47,744 nt of DNA. Origin: a virus. The position numbers were made by a program, and so were the translations under genes. Below, one piece after another: positions 11,966 through 20,277 of this stretch; the stretch's first letter is position 1, and each line of letters begins with the position of its first letter. The stretch is taken from the IMG/VR virus record IMGVR_UViG_3300024959_000040, positions 1 through 47,744 of that record; one strand, written 5' to 3'. Under the pieces are notes generated by a model. It saw only the letters and a list, made by a program, of their open reading frames with translations, was not told where the DNA came from and did no database searches.

Positions 11966-12478
11966 ATGCGTAAAAGCATTATCCGCACCATTGAAGCCGT
12001 GCGCCCCTTTATTCCCCGTATGCAGTTGATGACCATGGCCGATGGCCTGCGCTCAGAAGAGCGTGGTTTTTTCCGGGAGAAGTTCCGGGAGCTGGAATCC
12101 ACCATTGCCGCCATGCCGGTGACTTATGAGCAGTCGGAACTGGGCGAAGCCGCCCTGGTGTACTTGCATTACTTCGCGGGTGGGGCCGATTGGTGGATCA
12201 CTGAGAAGGATGTGGAGGGCGGCACACAGCAAGCCTTCGGCCTGGTCGACTTGGGCCATGGGCCTGAGCTGGGTTACATCAGCATTGCCGAGCTGGTGAA
12301 CCTGCGCAGCTTGAATATCGATCTGCACTGGAAGCCCTGCACCCTGGCCGCATTGAAAGAGGGCAAATATGGGGCCCGGCCTGAGCCTAAGCCTGAGCCG
12401 GCCCGGTTCAGCATGGAAATGATCGTGAGCCCTGCCGAGTGCCTGGCCAATGCCCCGGCCAATGGGGTGTATCACTGA
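11966..12478 (+). CDS. DUF2958-like protein
   Basis: This 170-residue protein has a central region resembling DUF2958: ALVYLHYFAGGADWWITEKD, QQAFGLVDLGHGPELGYISI, LNIDLHWKPCTLAALKEG. The family occurs on plasmids and mobile elements and has no established function. A Pro/Glu linker (PEPKPEPA) separates a short tail. The start is fixed by GGAG 7 bases upstream within the structured leader. It is the first gene after the promoter at 11871. Confidence 0.55.
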   Translation: MRKSIIRTIEAVRPFIPRMQLMTMADGLRSEERGFFREKFRELESTIAAMPVTYEQSELGEAALVYLHYFAGGADWWITEKDVEGGTQQAFGLVDLGHGPELGYISIAELVNLRSLNIDLHWKPCTLAALKEGKYGARPEPKPEPARFSMEMIVSPAECLANAPANGVYH

Positions 12479-12488
12479 CAGATTCAGT

Positions 12489-12512
12489 CACTGCCTGGCG
12501 TGCCGGGCAGTG
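12489..12512 (+). other. Intergenic hairpin
   Basis: CACTGCC (12489-12495) pairs with GGCAGTG (12506-12512); the loop can itself pair GGC with GCC. There is no T-run, so termination is uncertain. It lies between the DUF2958-like gene and the second structured leader and could be an mRNA processing or stability element. Confidence 0.4.
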
Positions 12513-12530
12513 GCGGGAGTTGTCCCGAAA

Positions 12531-12563
12531 CCCGCGCCTCGGGGTAGCTGAGGTCTTTTGGAG
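12531..12563 (+). promoter_or_regulatory. Structured 5' leader, copy 2 (pseudoknot-capable)
   Basis: CCC (12531-12533) can pair with GGG in 12541-12544, and GCCTC (12536-12540) with GAGGT (12550-12554). GGAG at 12560-12563 follows after CTTTT, and the sliding-clamp ATG is 7 bases on. Spacing and order match copy 1. Confidence 0.6.
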
Positions 12564-12570
12564 AAGTGCA

Positions 12571-13878
12571 ATGCTGAAGATCAATGACGTGCTGAAACTG
12601 GCCCGCGCAAAAAGCCCCCTGGCTGCCCTGCGCTCCGTGGTGTTCGATGGCCAGAGTGCCATTTGCGCAAGCGAGCTGGACTGGATGGTGGGCGTGCCCT
12701 GCCCACAGCCGCACCTGGCCGGCCCGGTGGTGGTGCCCGTGGAAGCTGTTTTGTCGCACCTGGCCAAAAGCCGCCACCTGGTGGTGATGCCCGATCATTT
12801 GAGCAATGGGCAGGGCCTGGTAACCCCGTTCGGCAAGGATGGCGGCGTGGATTACGACAGCGTGCTGGCCATGCTGCCGCGCCCGCCCGCCGGCCCGGTG
12901 GTGTCGTTTGACCTGGAGCTCAACGCCCTGGACCGTGTGCTGGTGGCTTCTGGCGTGCAGGACATTCGCTACTACCTCAACGGCGTGCTGTTTGACCTGA
13001 CGGATGGCGTGCTGGTGGGCACCGATGGCCACCGCCTGCACCTGTACCGCAACCGGGTTCCCCAGGTGTTCGGCCGCGAGCTTGTGGACGGCGTGGCGAC
13101 CCGCGCCCCGGTGCAGTTGATCCTGCCCCGTGACCCGCTGTACTGGGTGCTTGGCAGCCAGGGCGAGAGCGTGAAGGTCAGCATCTGGAATGCCCAGGCG
13201 GACACCAGAAACGACGAAGCCCCTGCACAGATCCTGCTGCAGGGGCAAGACTGCTTTGTGTGGATTCGCAAGCCCATCGAAGGCCAGTACCCCGACTGGG
13301 CGCGCGTGGTGCCCGCCGTGGTCAGCCGGCCGGTGTGGGCCCGCCTGAACCCGATTGCCCTGGCCGATGGCGCCGACGCCATGGGCAAGGCCATCACCCT
13401 GGCCAACCCGAAAGAGTTCCCGTCCGTGCGGATTGACTTCGGGGGTGGGCAGATTCGGGGCCATCGCCCGGAGGATGTTTTGCCCTTGGGTGTGCAGGTG
13501 CACAGCGACGATGCCAGCGTAGCGCCCGAAAGCCTGAGCGATGGGCTGCAGCTTTGCGTGAATGCCCGCTATTTGCAGGATGCCGCCGATTGTGTGACCC
13601 GCAATGCCCAGTGGCGCCCGGACTATTTGAACCCGACCATGGGCGCCTTGCTGGTGGTCGATGGGGACTTTTCGGGGGTGGTGATGCCGTACCGTGACCT
13701 GGCAAAGCCTGCCGACAATCCCGCAGAGCCTGCCGAGCAGGAAGCCCCGGAAGAGGCCGAACCCTGCCCCGCTGCCGTGGCTGCCCTGGCCGATCAGTTG
13801 ATGGGCAAGGCCCGCCAATCGGCCCAGCAAGCCCCGGCAAAGGCCCGTAGCAAGCCCCGCCGCCTGGTGGCAGCCTGA
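12571..13878 (+). CDS. DnaN-like DNA polymerase sliding clamp
   Basis: This 435-residue protein has the landmarks of bacterial beta clamps: VVVPVEAVLSHL (about 53-64, domain 1), VGTDGHRLHLY (149-159, compare ATDGHRLA), PIEGQYPDWARVVP (235-248, compare IEGRYPDYRRVLP), KEFPSVRIDF (281-290), NARYLQDAAD (331-340) and VMPYR (371-375, compare the terminal MPMRL). Clamps encircle DNA and tether polymerases and repair or late-transcription factors. An acidic, then basic tail (about 376-435) is extra. The start at 12571 is set by the leader GGAG. It lies among late genes with no phage DNA polymerase in view, so a regulatory or host-hijacking role is possible. Confidence 0.85.
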   Translation: MLKINDVLKLARAKSPLAALRSVVFDGQSAICASELDWMVGVPCPQPHLAGPVVVPVEAVLSHLAKSRHLVVMPDHLSNGQGLVTPFGKDGGVDYDSVLAMLPRPPAGPVVSFDLELNALDRVLVASGVQDIRYYLNGVLFDLTDGVLVGTDGHRLHLYRNRVPQVFGRELVDGVATRAPVQLILPRDPLYWVLGSQGESVKVSIWNAQADTRNDEAPAQILLQGQDCFVWIRKPIEGQYPDWARVVPAVVSRPVWARLNPIALADGADAMGKAITLANPKEFPSVRIDFGGGQIRGHRPEDVLPLGVQVHSDDASVAPESLSDGLQLCVNARYLQDAADCVTRNAQWRPDYLNPTMGALLVVDGDFSGVVMPYRDLAKPADNPAEPAEQEAPEEAEPCPAAVAALADQLMGKARQSAQQAPAKARSKPRRLVAA

Positions 13879-13884
13879 CCCCTT

Positions 13885-13902
13885 GCCCGGCCCCGGCCGG
13901 GC
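13885..13902 (+). terminator. Hairpin after the clamp gene, probable terminator
   Basis: GCCCGGC and GCCGGGC pair around CCCG, followed by TTCTC. The stem is strong but the T-run is weak. It lies 7 bases after the clamp stop codon. Confidence 0.5.
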
Positions 13903-13929
13903 TTCTCAACCCCAAAAAATGAGCCTATC

Positions 13930-14181
13930 ATGCCGCCCATGAATCCAAAAATGGACAAGTCCTTGCGGCTACTGGCTGCCCTGGACCGCCGCCCCCAGTC
14001 AAGCCATGAGCTGGCATCGAACCTGGCCACTAGTCGGCCCACTGTGATTCGCCTGGTCGAGGACTTGCGGGGCATGGGCTGCCAGATTGAGGCCGTGCGA
14101 GAGGGCCGGGCCGATTGGGCTTACCACTTGCGGGATTGGGGCTTATTCAACGCCGAGCGGGTGCTCCGGCATTTTGAGTGA
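13930..14181 (+). CDS. HTH (type 11-like) DNA-binding protein
   Basis: This 83-residue protein is nearly all winged-helix: DKSLRLLAALDRRPQSSHEL, then ATSRPTVIRLVEDLRGMGCQI, as in HTH_11/DeoR-type N-terminal domains, with a short wing (ADWAYHLRDWG). It is probably a small repressor or activator for the accessory block. ATGs at 13930, 13939 and 13951 are possible; none has a clear Shine-Dalgarno. A TATCAT box overlaps 13926-13931, so a leaderless message is possible. Confidence 0.6.
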   Translation: MPPMNPKMDKSLRLLAALDRRPQSSHELASNLATSRPTVIRLVEDLRGMGCQIEAVREGRADWAYHLRDWGLFNAERVLRHFE

Positions 14182-14192
14182 AGGAGTCTGTG

Positions 14193-14474
14193 ATGAAAAC
14201 TGCAAGCCATGAATTCGACACAGTGCACGGCAAGGTGACCGTGGATCTGGAAATTTTCGACATGGACGCCGTGGAAGCGGTGGACGTGTACGAGCAAGAC
14301 CGCAACTGGTTTGGCCTGGGCGGCTGGCGCATTGAGGGCATGGTGAACAGCACCCCGCGTGGCACCCGGTTCTACGGGCGCAGCAAGCTGGGAGCCGCTT
14401 ACTTCGGGAAGGGCACCGAGGACGCGGCGCGGGAGTTCCTGGCCGCCGCGCACCAGGATGGTTTTTTCGCCTAA
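14193..14474 (+). CDS. Hypothetical protein
   Basis: This 93-residue protein is unrecognised. The ATG at 14193 has AAGGAG 6 bases upstream and is preferred to a GTG at 14178. The N-terminal half is strand-rich and acidic (GKVTVDLEIFDMDAVEAVDV). The C-terminal part (FYGRSKLGAAYFGKGTEDAA) looks like a compact mixed fold. It sits between the HTH gene and the third structured leader. Confidence 0.55.
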   Translation: MKTASHEFDTVHGKVTVDLEIFDMDAVEAVDVYEQDRNWFGLGGWRIEGMVNSTPRGTRFYGRSKLGAAYFGKGTEDAAREFLAAAHQDGFFA

Positions 14475-14496
14475 GAGATGGGGCATGGTGCCCCGG

Positions 14497-14528
14497 CCCG
14501 CTCCGCTGGGTAGACGCGGACTTTGGAG
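14497..14528 (+). promoter_or_regulatory. Structured 5' leader, copy 3 (pseudoknot-capable)
   Basis: CCC (14497-14499) can pair with GGG (14508-14510), and TCCGC (14502-14506) with GCGGA (14516-14520). GGAG (14525-14528) follows after CTTT. The second stem has compensatory changes relative to copies 1 and 2, while the GC spacer and loop TAG are kept. Confidence 0.6.
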
Positions 14529-14534
14529 ATGGAA

Positions 14535-14846
14535 ATGAAAAAAGTGATCAATGGCAAGGTTTACAACACCGAAACAGCTACCCAGATTGCCAACTGGGAC
14601 AACGGGATTTATGGGAGCGACTTTCACGCCTGCGAAGAGACTCTATATGTCACCAGCAAGGGGGCCTACTTCGTTCATGGCGATGGCGGACCTGCAACCA
14701 GGTGGGCTCGTCCGGTAGGCAGCAATGGTCGTTGCGGCGGCAGTGGCATCGAGGTCTTGAGTCAAAGGGAAGCCTTGCAGTGGTGCGAGAACCACGCGGT
14801 TGATGCCGACGTGATCTCCGAGCACTTCTCCGTTGAGGAGGGCTGA
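14535..14846 (+). CDS. Hypothetical phage protein
   Basis: This 103-residue protein begins MKKVINGKVYNTETATQIA and has a central SKGAYFVHGDGGPATRWA motif and a C-terminal SQREALQWCENH helix. The pattern recurs in short phage and mobile-element proteins of unknown function. The start at 14535 is chosen because GGAG ends 6 bases before it; the ATG at 14529 touches the GGAG. It is translated from the third structured leader. Confidence 0.65.
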   Translation: MKKVINGKVYNTETATQIANWDNGIYGSDFHACEETLYVTSKGAYFVHGDGGPATRWARPVGSNGRCGGSGIEVLSQREALQWCENHAVDADVISEHFSVEEG

Positions 14847-14848
14847 TC

Positions 14849-15175
14849 GTGGATGAAAAAATGGTCCGTATCCATATCCCGCAAGGGCTCGACTTTGCGG
14901 CACTGAAGCTGAGCCGAGACCCGGTGACCCTGGATGTTGAGTTCGACTGGGCGCCGATCGAGGCCATTTGCCGGGAGTCGGGAATTGACATTGCCCTCTT
15001 CAGAGATCAGCCAGAGGACAACCTGGCGGCGCTGATTCACCAGTGGTATCTGGAGCACCTGGAGCGCGGCGGTGCGCCGGACCCGGTGCAGGAAGCGTTG
15101 CAGGCCGAGGTGCAAGCCGAGGCTGCTGCTGGTGGGCAGGCGGGGGTGATCAACCACGCTGGAAAGTTGCAATGA
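14849..15175 (+). CDS. Hypothetical protein
   Basis: This 108-residue protein starts at GTG 14849, with GAGGAGGG about 8 bases upstream and 2 bases after the preceding stop. It is acidic, with an Ala/Glu-rich C terminus (LQAEVQAEAAAGGQ). Its end overlaps the start of the PP-loop gene (ATGA), so the two are probably translationally coupled. No domain is recognised. Confidence 0.6.
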   Translation: MDEKMVRIHIPQGLDFAALKLSRDPVTLDVEFDWAPIEAICRESGIDIALFRDQPEDNLAALIHQWYLEHLERGGAPDPVQEALQAEVQAEAAAGGQAGVINHAGKLQ

Positions 15176-15906
15176 CCAACCCCGTCTGCGAGGTGGTGCG
15201 CGCCGCCACCGGCCACGACAAGGCCCTGCTGTCGTTTTCCCTGGGGAAAGACAGCTGGGCTGCCTGGCTGAGTGCGCGCGACTACTTCGACTTCACGCCG
15301 TATTACCTGTACCTCGTGCCCGGCCTGGAGTTCGTGCAGGACTACATCGGCTATGCGGAGCAGAAGCTGGGTAAGCACATCGTGCAGTTGCCGCACCCTG
15401 CTTTTTATCGGTGGATCAACCATGCCACCTACCAGGCGCCGGAGCGGCTGCGCATCATTGCGGCGGTAGGTTGGCCAGACTTTCAGTACGACGACATTCG
15501 GGGTGCGGTGATCGAGGATTGCAAGCTGCCCGAGGATGTGTGGACTGCCACGGGGGTTCGGGCTGCTGACAGCCCGATGCGCCGGGCTTCGCTGATCAAG
15601 AACCAAGGGGTGAATGCGAAGCGCCAGTATTTTTACCCGTGCTGGGACTGGAAAAAGGAGCAGCTGCTGGCTGAGCTGATCAAGAACGACATCAAGCTGC
15701 CGGTGGATTACAAGGTGTTCGGGCGCTCGTTTGACGGCCTGGACTTGCGCTTTCTGATCAAGATCAGGGAGCATTTCCCCAGGGACTACCAGACCATCCT
15801 GGACTGGTTCCCGCTCGTGGATATGGAGATTGCCCGCTATGAATTCGCCCAACGCAACGGCACCGCACGGCTCGCTGGAGAGCGCCACCGAGCTGTCAGC
15901 GCTTGA
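15172..15906 (+). CDS. PP-loop ATPase, PAPS-reductase-like
   Basis: This 244-residue enzyme of the adenine-nucleotide alpha-hydrolase superfamily has the PP-loop LLSFSLGKDSWAAW (about residues 19-32), which binds the phosphates of ATP or a nucleotide substrate. A second motif, TGVRAADSPMRR (about 128-139), fits phage PAPS-reductase-like proteins. Relatives reduce PAPS, activate tRNA or modify DNA (for example DndC in phosphorothioation). No Fe-S CC motif of assimilatory reductases is seen, only isolated cysteines (IEDCKL, YPCWDW). The open frame extends to 15043, but the ATG at 15172 fits the domain start. The substrate is unknown. Confidence 0.75.
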   Translation: MTNPVCEVVRAATGHDKALLSFSLGKDSWAAWLSARDYFDFTPYYLYLVPGLEFVQDYIGYAEQKLGKHIVQLPHPAFYRWINHATYQAPERLRIIAAVGWPDFQYDDIRGAVIEDCKLPEDVWTATGVRAADSPMRRASLIKNQGVNAKRQYFYPCWDWKKEQLLAELIKNDIKLPVDYKVFGRSFDGLDLRFLIKIREHFPRDYQTILDWFPLVDMEIARYEFAQRNGTARLAGERHRAVSA

Positions 15907-16342
15907 CGGCCTGGACGATCTGGACGGTGGCGGCCTGGACGGGCTCGACGGCCTGGGCGGGCTGGATGCGCTGGACGCCGACGATGGCCCGGACATGGAA
16001 GACCCGATTGGTGAGCTGGACTACGACAACCTGACCAATGAGGAAGTGGCACACAAGGAAACCAGCGCGGTGCTCGAAGCCTTCAAGGCACGCGCCCAGG
16101 CCGAGCAGGAACGCTTCAAGCTGGCCACCGACAGCGAGTATTGGGTGGGGCTGTGCTTTCAGACGCGGGCGCAGAAAGAGGCGTTTCTGAAGGCGGCCAA
16201 GCTGATCCAGCATGGCGACAAGTACATCGACGGCCAGCTGCTGGCGCAGCGCATGGGCATCGAGCTGCCGCCTGCGGCCGTGCCCTACAACGTGAGCGCC
16301 AAGGTGGATGCTAAGTACGCGGCGCTGGTGAAGGATCTGTGA
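15839..16342 (+). CDS. Acidic repeat N-terminus, hypothetical protein
   Basis: This 167-residue protein has a low-complexity N-terminal region of Leu-Asp-Gly repeats (about residues 22-50, e.g. GLDDLDGGGLDGLDGLGGLD), then a helical domain (KARAQAEQERFKLATDSEYW, QTRAQKEAFLKAAKLI). It overlaps the end of the PP-loop gene by 68 bases in another frame, with GGAG about 10 bases before its ATG. Tight overlap suggests a partner of the PP-loop protein. No family is recognised. Confidence 0.6.
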   Translation: MNSPNATAPHGSLESATELSALDGLDDLDGGGLDGLDGLGGLDALDADDGPDMEDPIGELDYDNLTNEEVAHKETSAVLEAFKARAQAEQERFKLATDSEYWVGLCFQTRAQKEAFLKAAKLIQHGDKYIDGQLLAQRMGIELPPAAVPYNVSAKVDAKYAALVKDL

Positions 16343-16629
16343 TGGCAACCCAATTGGAAATGGACGCCCGGGTTAAGACCTTACGGGACGATGTGTTGAA
16401 GGCCATGCATGCGCACTCCCAGCCAATCAGGGTCACCCTGTATTGGGCGTGGGCCCGCCGTTTTACGGAGTTCGATGAGTTCATTGCCTACGGACCTCCA
16501 GGGCCGCATGCGGGGCCGGAGCTATTCAACGGTGTGGAACTGGAGATGGGCGAAGACTCCGACTTGGCCGTCGTCATGTTTGCCGACGGTAGCTCGAAGA
16601 GCGTTACCTTGGGTTCACCATGGATCTAG
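16342..16629 (+). CDS. Hypothetical protein
   Basis: This 95-residue protein starts at the ATG of an overlapping TGATG junction. It combines a helical N terminus with a C-terminal strand-rich part (DLAVVMFADGSSKSVTLG). It is unrecognised. It overlaps the next gene by 10 bases, consistent with one operon. Confidence 0.55.
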   Translation: MATQLEMDARVKTLRDDVLKAMHAHSQPIRVTLYWAWARRFTEFDEFIAYGPPGPHAGPELFNGVELEMGEDSDLAVVMFADGSSKSVTLGSPWI

Positions 16630-16904
16630 CATTCCCCTATGGCGACGGCAACCACCACCGCATGAGCTGGCGGCGGGCGTGGGATGTGGACGTGGACGGG
16701 CTGACCGCCACGCACCGCGAGACTGGGTTTGTGGTGGCGTTCGAGCCGAGCCCGGCGGGCGGGTATACCGCACGCATTGGGTGCACACTGCCGCCGTTCG
16801 GGCCTGACGGCGAGCAGGCCATGGCGCAGATGTTCGGGCTGCGGCAACTGCTCAAGGATGGGTGGGACATTTTCCACACGGTGGCGCGCAAAGCGCTGGC
16901 GTAA
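16620..16904 (+). CDS. Hypothetical protein
   Basis: This 94-residue protein is the last gene of the accessory block. It has an amphipathic C-terminal helix (EQAMAQMFGLRQLLKDGWDIF) and a middle segment rich in Thr and Gly. No family is recognised. It is followed by two hairpins, so the transcript probably ends here. Confidence 0.55.
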   Translation: MDLAFPYGDGNHHRMSWRRAWDVDVDGLTATHRETGFVVAFEPSPAGGYTARIGCTLPPFGPDGEQAMAQMFGLRQLLKDGWDIFHTVARKALA

Positions 16905-16912
16905 CGCCCCCC

Positions 16913-16934
16913 CGATACGGGAATCCCCGTATCG
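16913..16934 (+). terminator. 9-bp hairpin after the accessory block
   Basis: CGATACGGG (16913-16921) pairs perfectly with CCCGTATCG (16926-16934) around AATC. No T-run follows directly, but a second hairpin and two T-runs come within 70 bases. Confidence 0.5.
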
Positions 16935-16945
16935 CCCCAAAACCG

Positions 16946-16992
16946 CTCCAAAATCCATAGCTGCCAGCGCTTGCCATTCAAGCGCTAGGCGC
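16946..16992. repeat. REP-like palindromic element
   Basis: The core CAAAATCCATAGC (16949-16961) is followed by CCAGCGCTTG (16964-16973) pairing with CAAGCGCTAGG (16979-16989), with one unpaired A. Elements with an ATAGC head and an AGCGCTT stem are frequent between genes in Comamonadaceae. The same head occurs at 4733 and 5111, and an inverted version at 44825. T-runs at 16994-16998 and 17005-17011 could make it act as a terminator. Confidence 0.6.
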
Positions 16993-17066
16993 GCTTTTTG
17001 CCCCCTTTTTTCGCGCGCCTGAAACGCTGAAGATGCCCACGCGGACAACCCCGCGTCAGAGGCACC

Positions 17067-19736
17067 ATGAAGCGTTTCACCCTTATTGCTCTTGCAGTCA
17101 TGGCCGTGTCGGTGGTGGCTGCGTGGAAGGCGCCGCCGGCAGGGCGGCACATTCGCCTGGGGCATGAGGATGGGGTCCCTGGGCGGGTGCGGTTCCTGTC
17201 GCAAAGCATTTCGCTGGCCGAGGGCGCCAAGACTTCGTGGATCACGCTGACCCGTGTCGGGCAGTTCCACGACCCGCGCTATGGCGACTTTGCGATCACC
17301 CACGCCATGCTGGCGCAGATGGTGCAGAACTTCGATGGCCGCGTGCTGGGGCAGGACGTGTTCATTGACGTGGCGCACCGGCCAGACGATGGCGCTGCGG
17401 CCAAGGTGCTGCGGCTGTCGGTCGAAGACGGGCGGCTGCGCGCGCTGGTGGAGTGGACGCCGTTTGGCGTGCAGTCCGTCAAGGAACGGGGCTTCACCTA
17501 CCTGTCGGCCGAGTACCACGAAGCGTGGCAGGACAACGAAAAGAAGCAGCAGCACGGCTGCGTGCTGCTGGGTGCGGGCCTGACGAACCGGCCCGTGATT
17601 TCGCGCCTGGACGGCATCGACCCCAAATCCCTTTCGCAGGACAACGACCACGACGCGAGCGTGCGCGTGGCCGTGTCCCACCAACTTCTCAAAGAACTGC
17701 AGGAGCAGGACACCATGAACTTCATTGAACAACTCAAGGCGCACTACAAGGCGCTGGGCCTGTCCGACGCTGTGGCCACCAAGCTGCTGGCCGAGGCGCA
17801 AAAGCAACTCGACGTCGCTGCCGCCGACCAGGTGAAGTGCCTGGCGCTGGTGGAAACGTGGAAGGCGAACGGCGCCGCAGTGCACGAGCAAATCAAGGCG
17901 CTGGCCGTTGCCAGCCCCGGCCAACCGCAGAACGTGACGATCACCCTGGCCACGCCCGCCGTGGACGTGGACGCCGCCGTGAAGCTGGCGATGAAGGCGG
18001 CAGATGACGCCAAGACGCTGGCGCAGACCACCATTGCGGCCAAACACAAGCTGCTGGCCACCACCATTGCCGAGGGCAACAAGGATCTTGACGAGGCCGC
18101 CGCGCGTCAGCTTTGCGCGAATGTGGAGCCTTTGATTACCGCCGACACCACCGACGAGCAGGTCAAGGCCCTGGCGCAAATGCAGATCGACCACGTGCAG
18201 CAGCTCAGCGCACAGGCCAAGCTGCAGGGCATGGGCTATGTGCAGATTGCGGGCAATGCGCGCATCACGGTGGACAGCAGCAACAGCATCAAGAGCCTGC
18301 AGGCCACCATTGACAAGCGCCTGGGCTACGAGGGCATGAACGAGGCCAAGCGCTTCGAGAAGACGGGCGGCAAGCTGCTCGCGGTGAACAAGGACTTTGC
18401 CGAGAAGGCGCTGGCCCAGTTCGATGCAGCCAACGGCCAGCGCCTGGACGCCGAGCACAAGATGCTCGCCGCCGGTACCGGCACGATCAGCGACGTGGCC
18501 GTGCCCGTGGTGGCCGAGCGCACGGTGCTGCGCGAAGCGCTGTACAACCTGACCAGCCTGGCCTTTGTGAACGCCGGCACGGCCCCGTTTGCCAACGTGC
18601 TGACGGTGCCTTACAGCTACCGCGACCAGACCGCTGCTGGTGTGGGCGCGCTGCGCCGCTATGAAGGCCAGGGCATTCGCCGCGCCGGGGTGATCCAGAC
18701 GCAGGAAGAGGCCCGCCCGATTCCGCAAAAGCTGGCCTACCTGCTTTCGAGCGAGCTGCGCCTGCTGATGAGCGCATCGCCGATTGACTTTGACCCGCTG
18801 GCCGAGAACATCCGCAACATCGTGCGGATCGTGGGCGAGGACACCGAGGCGATCAACTACAACGAAATGGTCTTCTCGGCCGACGAGTCGGGCGCCACGG
18901 CGTTCAGCGACACGCTGACGGCCCAGTGCAACGGCACCAATAAGGTGTTTGTCACCAGCGTGTTCCCGGTGGTGCGCCCGCGCCAGGCCTACGACCTCAA
19001 GGGCAATGCCGTGGGCAGCCCGACCAACCCGCTGACCATTACCTATGACGGCACGGTGCGCACCGAGTACGCGCTGCCGGCCGATGGCAGCGCGCTGCCC
19101 GCAGGCATTTACTACGCCATGGACTGGAACCTGGGCGAATTCCGCCTGCTGGACCAAACCGGCGCGGCCGTCTTGCCGGCCAACGGCAAGGTGCTGACGG
19201 TGACGGGCTCGCGCGCCACGAACCGCTCGATCTGGAACGTGGATGTGGTGGGCACGGAAAACATTCGCGACCGCTACGACCGCCTGCTGACCGAGATTGG
19301 CAACCGCAAGGTGGTGATCGAGAACGACCGCTACTACACCGCCAACTTCGCGCTGATGAGCGGCGCCATGGACAACGCGCTGTCGCAGGCCGAGAGCTTC
19401 CGCTCCAGCAGCTCGCGCGTGGCCACTGGCCTCGCGGCGGACGGCAGCCTGGGCTTTACCAAGGGCATTCCCACCTTCAACCCCAGCGCGCCGGGGCTGG
19501 TGCTGGGCGACAGCCGCATTCTGGTGGGCGAGCGGGCGAACACGCGCTTTCGCATGGTGAAGGCTTTTGCCATGAACCCACCCGAGCAGGCGCGCAACTC
19601 GAACGGCCTGTACACCGACCAGCAGGAAGGCTTTGGCACGCAGTACATCGTGAGCCACACGCCGACGCAGCTGAAAAACAGTCTGACCTCGATCGTCGTC
19701 TACAGCTCGACCGGGCGTGTAGCTCGCGCTGCCTGA
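17067..19736 (+). CDS. Fused maturation protease, scaffold and major capsid protein
   Basis: This 889-residue polyprotein has three parts. Residues about 56-195 resemble Mu protein-I-type prohead proteases; H104 (DVAHRP) and S147 (TYLSAEY) are likely catalytic. Residues about 217-385 are helical and Lys/Ala/Gln-rich, like a scaffold. Residues about 390-889 look like a major capsid protein (EGMNEAKRFEKTGGKLLAVN, NRKVVIENDRYYTANFALMSGAMDNALSQAE). These are usually two or three genes. The first 20 residues are hydrophobic, an odd feature. An internal ATG at 17715 with AGGAG 9 bases upstream could give a separate scaffold-capsid product. A small hairpin (17039-17056) precedes the start. Confidence 0.8.
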   Translation: MKRFTLIALAVMAVSVVAAWKAPPAGRHIRLGHEDGVPGRVRFLSQSISLAEGAKTSWITLTRVGQFHDPRYGDFAITHAMLAQMVQNFDGRVLGQDVFIDVAHRPDDGAAAKVLRLSVEDGRLRALVEWTPFGVQSVKERGFTYLSAEYHEAWQDNEKKQQHGCVLLGAGLTNRPVISRLDGIDPKSLSQDNDHDASVRVAVSHQLLKELQEQDTMNFIEQLKAHYKALGLSDAVATKLLAEAQKQLDVAAADQVKCLALVETWKANGAAVHEQIKALAVASPGQPQNVTITLATPAVDVDAAVKLAMKAADDAKTLAQTTIAAKHKLLATTIAEGNKDLDEAAARQLCANVEPLITADTTDEQVKALAQMQIDHVQQLSAQAKLQGMGYVQIAGNARITVDSSNSIKSLQATIDKRLGYEGMNEAKRFEKTGGKLLAVNKDFAEKALAQFDAANGQRLDAEHKMLAAGTGTISDVAVPVVAERTVLREALYNLTSLAFVNAGTAPFANVLTVPYSYRDQTAAGVGALRRYEGQGIRRAGVIQTQEEARPIPQKLAYLLSSELRLLMSASPIDFDPLAENIRNIVRIVGEDTEAINYNEMVFSADESGATAFSDTLTAQCNGTNKVFVTSVFPVVRPRQAYDLKGNAVGSPTNPLTITYDGTVRTEYALPADGSALPAGIYYAMDWNLGEFRLLDQTGAAVLPANGKVLTVTGSRATNRSIWNVDVVGTENIRDRYDRLLTEIGNRKVVIENDRYYTANFALMSGAMDNALSQAESFRSSSSRVATGLAADGSLGFTKGIPTFNPSAPGLVLGDSRILVGERANTRFRMVKAFAMNPPEQARNSNGLYTDQQEGFGTQYIVSHTPTQLKNSLTSIVVYSSTGRVARAA
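17715..19736 (+). CDS. Possible internal-start product: scaffold plus capsid
   Basis: The in-frame ATG at 17715 (MNFIEQLKAHYKAL) has AGGAG at 17701-17705 and would yield 673 residues lacking the protease. Nested in-frame scaffold or capsid genes are known in lambda-type head modules (C/Nu3). It falls exactly at the domain boundary, which is the main support; expression is unproven. Confidence 0.45.
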   Translation: MNFIEQLKAHYKALGLSDAVATKLLAEAQKQLDVAAADQVKCLALVETWKANGAAVHEQIKALAVASPGQPQNVTITLATPAVDVDAAVKLAMKAADDAKTLAQTTIAAKHKLLATTIAEGNKDLDEAAARQLCANVEPLITADTTDEQVKALAQMQIDHVQQLSAQAKLQGMGYVQIAGNARITVDSSNSIKSLQATIDKRLGYEGMNEAKRFEKTGGKLLAVNKDFAEKALAQFDAANGQRLDAEHKMLAAGTGTISDVAVPVVAERTVLREALYNLTSLAFVNAGTAPFANVLTVPYSYRDQTAAGVGALRRYEGQGIRRAGVIQTQEEARPIPQKLAYLLSSELRLLMSASPIDFDPLAENIRNIVRIVGEDTEAINYNEMVFSADESGATAFSDTLTAQCNGTNKVFVTSVFPVVRPRQAYDLKGNAVGSPTNPLTITYDGTVRTEYALPADGSALPAGIYYAMDWNLGEFRLLDQTGAAVLPANGKVLTVTGSRATNRSIWNVDVVGTENIRDRYDRLLTEIGNRKVVIENDRYYTANFALMSGAMDNALSQAESFRSSSSRVATGLAADGSLGFTKGIPTFNPSAPGLVLGDSRILVGERANTRFRMVKAFAMNPPEQARNSNGLYTDQQEGFGTQYIVSHTPTQLKNSLTSIVVYSSTGRVARAA

Positions 19737-19759
19737 ATAACCCCCACCGCACCTGTAGC

Positions 19760-19793
19760 CCCCTGAGCGCGCCCATTGGCGGCGCGCCAGGGG
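19760..19793 (+). other. Strong hairpin after the capsid gene
   Basis: CCCCTG (19760-19765) pairs with CAGGGG (19788-19793), and GCGCGCC (19767-19773) with GGCGCGC (19781-19787), with a single bulged A. It has 13 base pairs and no T-run. It sits between the capsid stop and the next gene's AAGGAG, and may stabilise the capsid message or reduce read-through. Confidence 0.55.
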
Positions 19794-19815
19794 CGCAGCG
19801 GCGAAGGAGAACCCC

Positions 19816-20277
19816 ATGGGCACCCGACACATCGAGAACCACACGGCCAATGCCATCTTCGTGGGTGGCAAGCTGATCCCCCCTGGATCTGGCCGCGACA
19901 TTGACGAAGCCTTGCTGCCGCCTGAGCGGCGCGGCGCGCCTGAGCAGGACGGCGCACCGGCAGAGCCCACGCTGGCCGAGCTTGTGGCCGAGCTGCATGG
20001 GCGCAGCGTGAAAGACATTGCCGCCGAGCTGCCCAACCTGAAGCAGGAAGCGCTCGACATGCTGCGCGAGGCCGAGAACGCTTCGACCAAACCGCGCACC
20101 AGCCTGCTGGCCGCGCTGGACGCCGAGCGCCTGCGCCGGGCGGATGAGCAGTTGCAGGCGGATGCCGACGCGGCTTACCAGGCGCAGCTGGCCGGGCTGA
20201 CGCCTGAGCAGCTTGCCGCCATTGGTGAAGGCGCCCCGGCTGGTACGCCGGGCACGGGCGAGAAGCCGCAGGCATAA
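19816..20277 (+). CDS. Putative head protein after the capsid gene
   Basis: This 153-residue acidic protein has an N-terminal segment (ENHTANAIFVGGKLIPPGSG) resembling short phage proteins that follow the capsid gene. Helical, charged middle and C-terminal parts follow (KDIAAELPNLKQEALDMLRE, LRRADEQLQADADAAY). AAGGAG precedes the ATG. A head-decoration or completion role is inferred from position only. Confidence 0.6.
   Translation: MGTRHIENHTANAIFVGGKLIPPGSGRDIDEALLPPERRGAPEQDGAPAEPTLAELVAELHGRSVKDIAAELPNLKQEALDMLREAENASTKPRTSLLAALDAERLRRADEQLQADADAAYQAQLAGLTPEQLAAIGEGAPAGTPGTGEKPQA

Follow-up and report, generated by a model that had tools for sequence, protein, structure and literature searches.

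A conserved in-frame start nested within a phage gene for a protease-scaffold-capsid fusion

The window, i.e., the entire stretch of viral DNA analyzed here (47,744 nucleotides; IMG/VR record IMGVR_UViG_3300024959_000040), contains a single uninterrupted frame on the plus strand (17067-19736) that begins with ATG and encodes an 889-residue fusion of a protease, a scaffold and a capsid protein. At the border between protease and scaffold lies an in-frame ATG with its own Shine-Dalgarno (SD) sequence, and a start codon is present at this border far beyond chance among homologues. Initiation there would very likely yield a second, protease-free product. We consider it highly probable that two nested, co-terminal products are made and assemble together, that protease number is set by how often each start is used relative to the other, and that the internal start corresponds to that of the I/Z genes of phage Mu.

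The fused gene and its parts

A sequence-only reading of this DNA had proposed a frame of 889 residues in three parts, and the open reading frame, the domain matches of its homologues and the modeled folds all bear this out; the single-frame fusion is likewise kept in homologues. The full-length start is preceded by a probable SD (AGAGG, 17058-17062). Since the 889-residue protein by itself matched no Pfam, PHROG or NCBIfam model, assignment of its domains needed relatives and structure; sequence searches of the PDB, with either the protein or profiles built from it, also returned nothing useful. Homologues were obtained from 80 loci on viral contigs and 19 on genome contigs, mostly betaproteobacterial, and from Microcystis phage yong1. 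Acidovorax sp. sif1233 (L084) and Pseudacidovorax intermedius DSM 21352 (L085) are examples of bacteria that carry a homologous prophage. Among 49 diverse homologues, 43 matched PF10123 (Mu-like_Pro; E<=0.1, best 3.1e-16) and 45 matched PHROG 328 (head maturation protease), and several homologues scored above the curated PF10123 cut-off. When the family profile was aligned with Mu gpI, H104 and S147 paired with the DYEH and YLSA motifs of Mu. Both residues are invariant across the 49 homologues, and D101, H104 and S147 (DxxH and YLS motifs) were all invariant after two unfused Mu-type I proteins were added. The modeled domain weakly resembled herpesvirus proteases and T4 gp21 in the PDB (best E 0.011) and showed clear prohead-protease resemblance when compared with predicted phage proteins (best E 3.6e-11). 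By these alignments, the N-terminal domain (residues 56-173, 17232-17585) is homologous to the Mu gpI protease, in agreement with the earlier suggestion of a Mu-I-like protease with H104 and S147.

Residues 1-45 (17067-17201) form a leader that varies within the family and was modeled with low confidence. It is Ala-rich, hydrophobic and signal-peptide-like (MKRFTLIALAVMAVSVVAAWK), which is odd on a capsid protease; members of the same clade as the window (L002, L003, L006, L084 and L088) have comparable leaders, which are absent from most of the family.

Downstream of the protease, residues 205-468 form long helices in the AlphaFold model, and we take residues 217-468 (17715-18470) as the scaffold part. 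Residues 471-889 (18477-19733) adopt the HK97 fold, as judged from the AlphaFold model and from Foldseek matches to many phage capsids (E 4e-8 to 1e-6); the HK97 entry 1ohg matched at E 1.3e-6. A conserved E-x-K-x-L-A-x-G stretch at the junction (residues 463-470, 18453-18476) is a candidate region for cleavage between scaffold and capsid. No sequence relation between the capsid part and Mu T (gpT, PF10124) was detected (hhalign probability 0.3%), and PF10124 was absent from the families matched by the homologues. A search among homologues for a third conserved start at the scaffold-capsid junction found none that was comparably conserved; therefore, the capsid protein is probably made only joined to the scaffold.

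Two features of the surroundings may be recorded here. Between the portal and head-morphogenesis genes and the capsid gene lie genes of non-structural appearance (11966-16904), with matches to DUF2958, sliding-clamp/RusA-like, PAPS reductase-like and, weakly, RNase H-like proteins. On the minus strand, an open frame of 1157 codons (16626-20099) runs antisense to the capsid gene, and antisense frames of 818-941 codons are also found in L002, L003 and L005; the antisense frame is probably a by-product of high G+C content and codon bias.

Conservation of the internal start

The gene contains 78 in-frame ATG, GTG or TTG codons, three of which have a 5-nt SD match, and codon 217 (17715-17717) is the sole ATG of those. 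The position of this ATG and the AGGAG 9 nt upstream (17701-17705) had been correctly given in the sequence-only reading; the predicted scaffold-capsid product would be 673 residues long. In a set of 80 non-redundant homologues (<90% identity), a start codon was found within two residues of position 217 in every gene (76 ATG and 4 GTG), and an SD match of 4 nt or longer preceded it in 91%, as opposed to 11% of 1172 other in-frame ATGs. Because related sequences are not independent, separate events are fewer than these counts suggest. Identity inside the set extends down to about 34%. The residues encoded by the SD vary among lineages, and the SD occurs at two main spacings, one codon apart. 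When codons were resampled with the amino acids held fixed, 41±3.4 genes were expected to carry an SD, with a maximum of 52 in 1000 trials; 73 were observed. The observed SDs thus exceed the synonymous-codon null, which argues that selection acts on the nucleotide signal, and conservation of a methionine or linker by itself would not account for the excess. Taken together, the universal start codons, the frequency of SDs and the resampling lend very strong comparative support to the internal in-frame start that had been proposed.

Apparent split genes among the homologues were checked individually. One is a truncated copy (L101), two have frame changes (L076 and L082), one is fused as far as the end of its locus (L077) and one is fused (L044). 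In L049 and L076, ~80 additional residues are present directly upstream of the internal start, and the SD and ATG are retained there.

The two SDs of the window gene are similar in predicted strength (upstream, -5.8; internal, -6.6 kcal/mol), so the ratio of the two products cannot be predicted. Folding over 60 nt is stronger at the upstream start (-15.1 kcal/mol) than at the internal one (-6.8 kcal/mol), and over 35 nt the respective values are -4.9 and -5.1 kcal/mol. The spacer of the upstream SD is short (4 nt); together with the 60-nt folding, it hints at more internal than full-length product.

Origin, recurrence and rival explanations

The sequence-only reading had offered lambda C/Nu3 as the precedent. 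However, Mu I/Z proved closer, with a homologous protease, an aligned Z start, and unfused genes that have both start and SD. In the annotated Mu record, scaffold Z (p20) begins inside I with a ribosome-binding site, the DNA at the Z start being CAGGAGAACAAACCCATG, and, in the protein alignment, the methionine of Z lies no more than one residue from M217. Alignment at this place was possible for 17 distinct unfused Mu-type I genes, that of Mu included (L125 and L126/L136 failed to align there and were not counted). Of these 17, 16 have ATG, GTG or TTG with an SD of 4 nt or longer; the SD of the sole exception, L135, is 3 nt. PF10123 matches were found in 24 of 301 genomes of the host's bacterial family, and, apart from a few fragments, the proteins fall into two size classes, about 340-440 residues (unfused) and 856-946 residues (fused). 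In a tree, a branch with 100/100 support separates the fused from the unfused proteases. It is likely that the nested I/Z start came first and that the capsid gene was later joined downstream. A candidate internal start (Val 177) with an SD has also been described in the protease-scaffold gene of the Mu-like Pseudomonas phage PaMx73 (PMC4378225), which shares this feature with the window; its capsid gene, unlike that of the window, is separate.

The nested start is not unique to this phage, since the same kind of arrangement recurs in other protease-capsid fusions. Curated fusions with other proteases are described by NF045540 (scaf_prot_MCP1) and NF045541 (scaf_prot_MCP2), and we sampled four families from genomes and viral contigs, comprising these types and two further groups. 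An internal start was present in 65 of 67 genes of the family with S78 and PF25209 (SD in 85% of those), 30 of 45 with ClpP and PF25209 (87%), 48 of 48 with an unassigned N-terminal domain and PF25209 (98%), and 47 of 62 with S78 and PF05065 (85%); start codons are least frequent in the ClpP group, and three of the four families have the same capsid family, so they are not fully independent. Other in-frame ATGs of these genes have an SD in 9-16%. Aligned-column tests placed the conserved starts of all four families after the N-terminal domain. Each family exceeded all 500 synonymous-codon resamples, with a narrow margin for S78/PF25209 (55 versus a maximum of 54), and the Fisher and P values are optimistic because the best site per family was picked. 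A cruder test based on distance from the stop, which the aligned-column tests superseded, had put the top bins modestly above the null, and within its range in two of the four families. In a literature search limited to open-licence papers, no report of nested starts inside capsid-fusion genes came to light. We lean, with reservations, toward initiation at the border being a design rule that holds generally for protease-scaffold-capsid fusions of phages, extending over three or more protease types (Mu gpI, S78 and ClpP), by which a fraction of the lattice would carry a covalently tethered protease at a dose given by the ratio of two starts in one gene.

Two side observations concern these families. 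The ~795-residue fusions of group B (L363-L440) have a PF25209 capsid and ~300 N-terminal residues without a Pfam match, and this N-terminal part may be an undescribed prohead protease. Bacterial genome G194 has three head systems (L112, L138 and L151): two are fusions, one Mu-type and one ClpP-type, and the third has a Mu-type protease gene that is unfused.

Other explanations of the internal signal can be weighed against these results. If the full-length polyprotein alone were made, the SD-like stretch might act as a translational pause that aids folding, with Met217 merely conserved and a protease-free protein arising by cleavage. Pausing between domains is conceivable, and the codon resampling is compatible with selection for nothing more than an SD-like sequence. 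However, a pause requires no start codon, yet one is present in all 80 genes, with GTG in place of ATG in four, and the aligned start in Mu is annotated as that of a distinct protein, Z; we regard this explanation as very unlikely. Still less credible, indeed scarcely tenable, is the idea that the start and SD are a functionless relic of a once-separate downstream gene that became fused by loss of a stop codon. Such an origin is plausible and would account for the occurrence of these starts in several fusion families, but a functionless start would decay, and homologues with as little as about 34% identity have retained it. Codon choice, moreover, maintains the SD, and genes of the Mu lineage that lack the capsid fusion have the start as well.

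The internal start might instead be used to supply additional scaffold-capsid protein or to suit lattice geometry, rather than to control the copy number of the protease. Since the capsid is on both products, the short form may be the main building block, and of the two SDs the internal one is slightly the stronger. Nonetheless, the conserved start directly follows the N-terminal protease across different protease types, so omission of the protease is the factor common to these families. We therefore think it unlikely that supply or geometry is the role in place of copy-number control, and the two roles are not mutually exclusive.

Proposed mechanism and comparison with known systems

In the mechanism that we favor, i.e., control of protease dose by two nested starts, initiation at 17067 would give the protease-scaffold-capsid protein and initiation at 17715 the scaffold-capsid protein, and both forms would join the procapsid through their common scaffold and capsid parts. 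If the long form enters the lattice, some shell subunits would therefore hold a tethered protease inside. Following assembly, the protease would cut the capsid from the scaffold and remove itself; a cut near residue 470 would produce the mature capsid protein, and scaffold and protease would be degraded or exit. The relative use of the two starts would determine how many proteases each procapsid receives, and it is likely that the product ratio sets the protease copy number. The share of long product might also limit crowding within the shell. The nested start would be the Mu I/Z start, retained once the capsid gene had been joined downstream.

Lambda C/Nu3 and herpesvirus UL26/UL26.5, like Mu I/Z, meet the same need with a capsid protein that is separate; their nested in-frame products consist of a protease-scaffold and the scaffold alone. 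The likeness to lambda is one of analogy only, lambda C being S49-type, whereas the protease of the window proved to be Mu-type. The nested products of the herpesviruses are alike, and the modeled protease of the window weakly resembles theirs in fold. In phage HK97, gp5 consists of a scaffold domain fused to the HK97-fold capsid and later cleaved off, and the protease is in a separate gene; the window gene shares the scaffold-capsid fusion and differs in including the protease.

Mu I/Z and T are closest, with a homologous protease and, where the two align, an SD-preceded internal start in frame. However, T is a separate ORF in Mu whose overlap with the end of I/Z amounts to a few bases, whereas in the window the capsid is fused onto I/Z, so that both products carry it. 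Since the capsid is in the same frame, the window gene is a variant of the Mu I/Z arrangement and not a plain member. An equivalent fused protein (QNL13339.1, 37% identical and with boundary start codons) occurs in Microcystis phage vB_MaeS-yong1, where it is annotated as a hypothetical protein with the note 'Mu-like prophage I protein'. In the same phage (L005, MT855965.1; 19663-19896 and 19947-22493), a 77-residue protein (QNL13340.1) is named major head protein, and the HK97-type capsid apparently forms the C-terminal portion of the neighboring QNL13339.1 rather than QNL13340.1. The scaf_prot_MCP1 and scaf_prot_MCP2 proteins are like that of the window in having protease and major capsid in one gene and an internal start with SD after the protease, but they combine ClpP- or S78-type proteases with a PF25209 capsid. 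The window protein gave no match at the curated cut-offs of NF045540 and NF045541; it works alike and is not a member.

The occurrence of the signature in four further fusion families points to a shared constraint, in that a protease is probably unwanted on every shell subunit. Annotation of such fused genes currently overlooks what may be their main structural product, and the fused gene offers a directly testable system for how phages control protease dose. In previously known nested protease-scaffold genes the capsid is separate; what is new here is that the nesting takes in the capsid, and therefore there would be two kinds of shell subunit, with protease number linked to the composition of the lattice.
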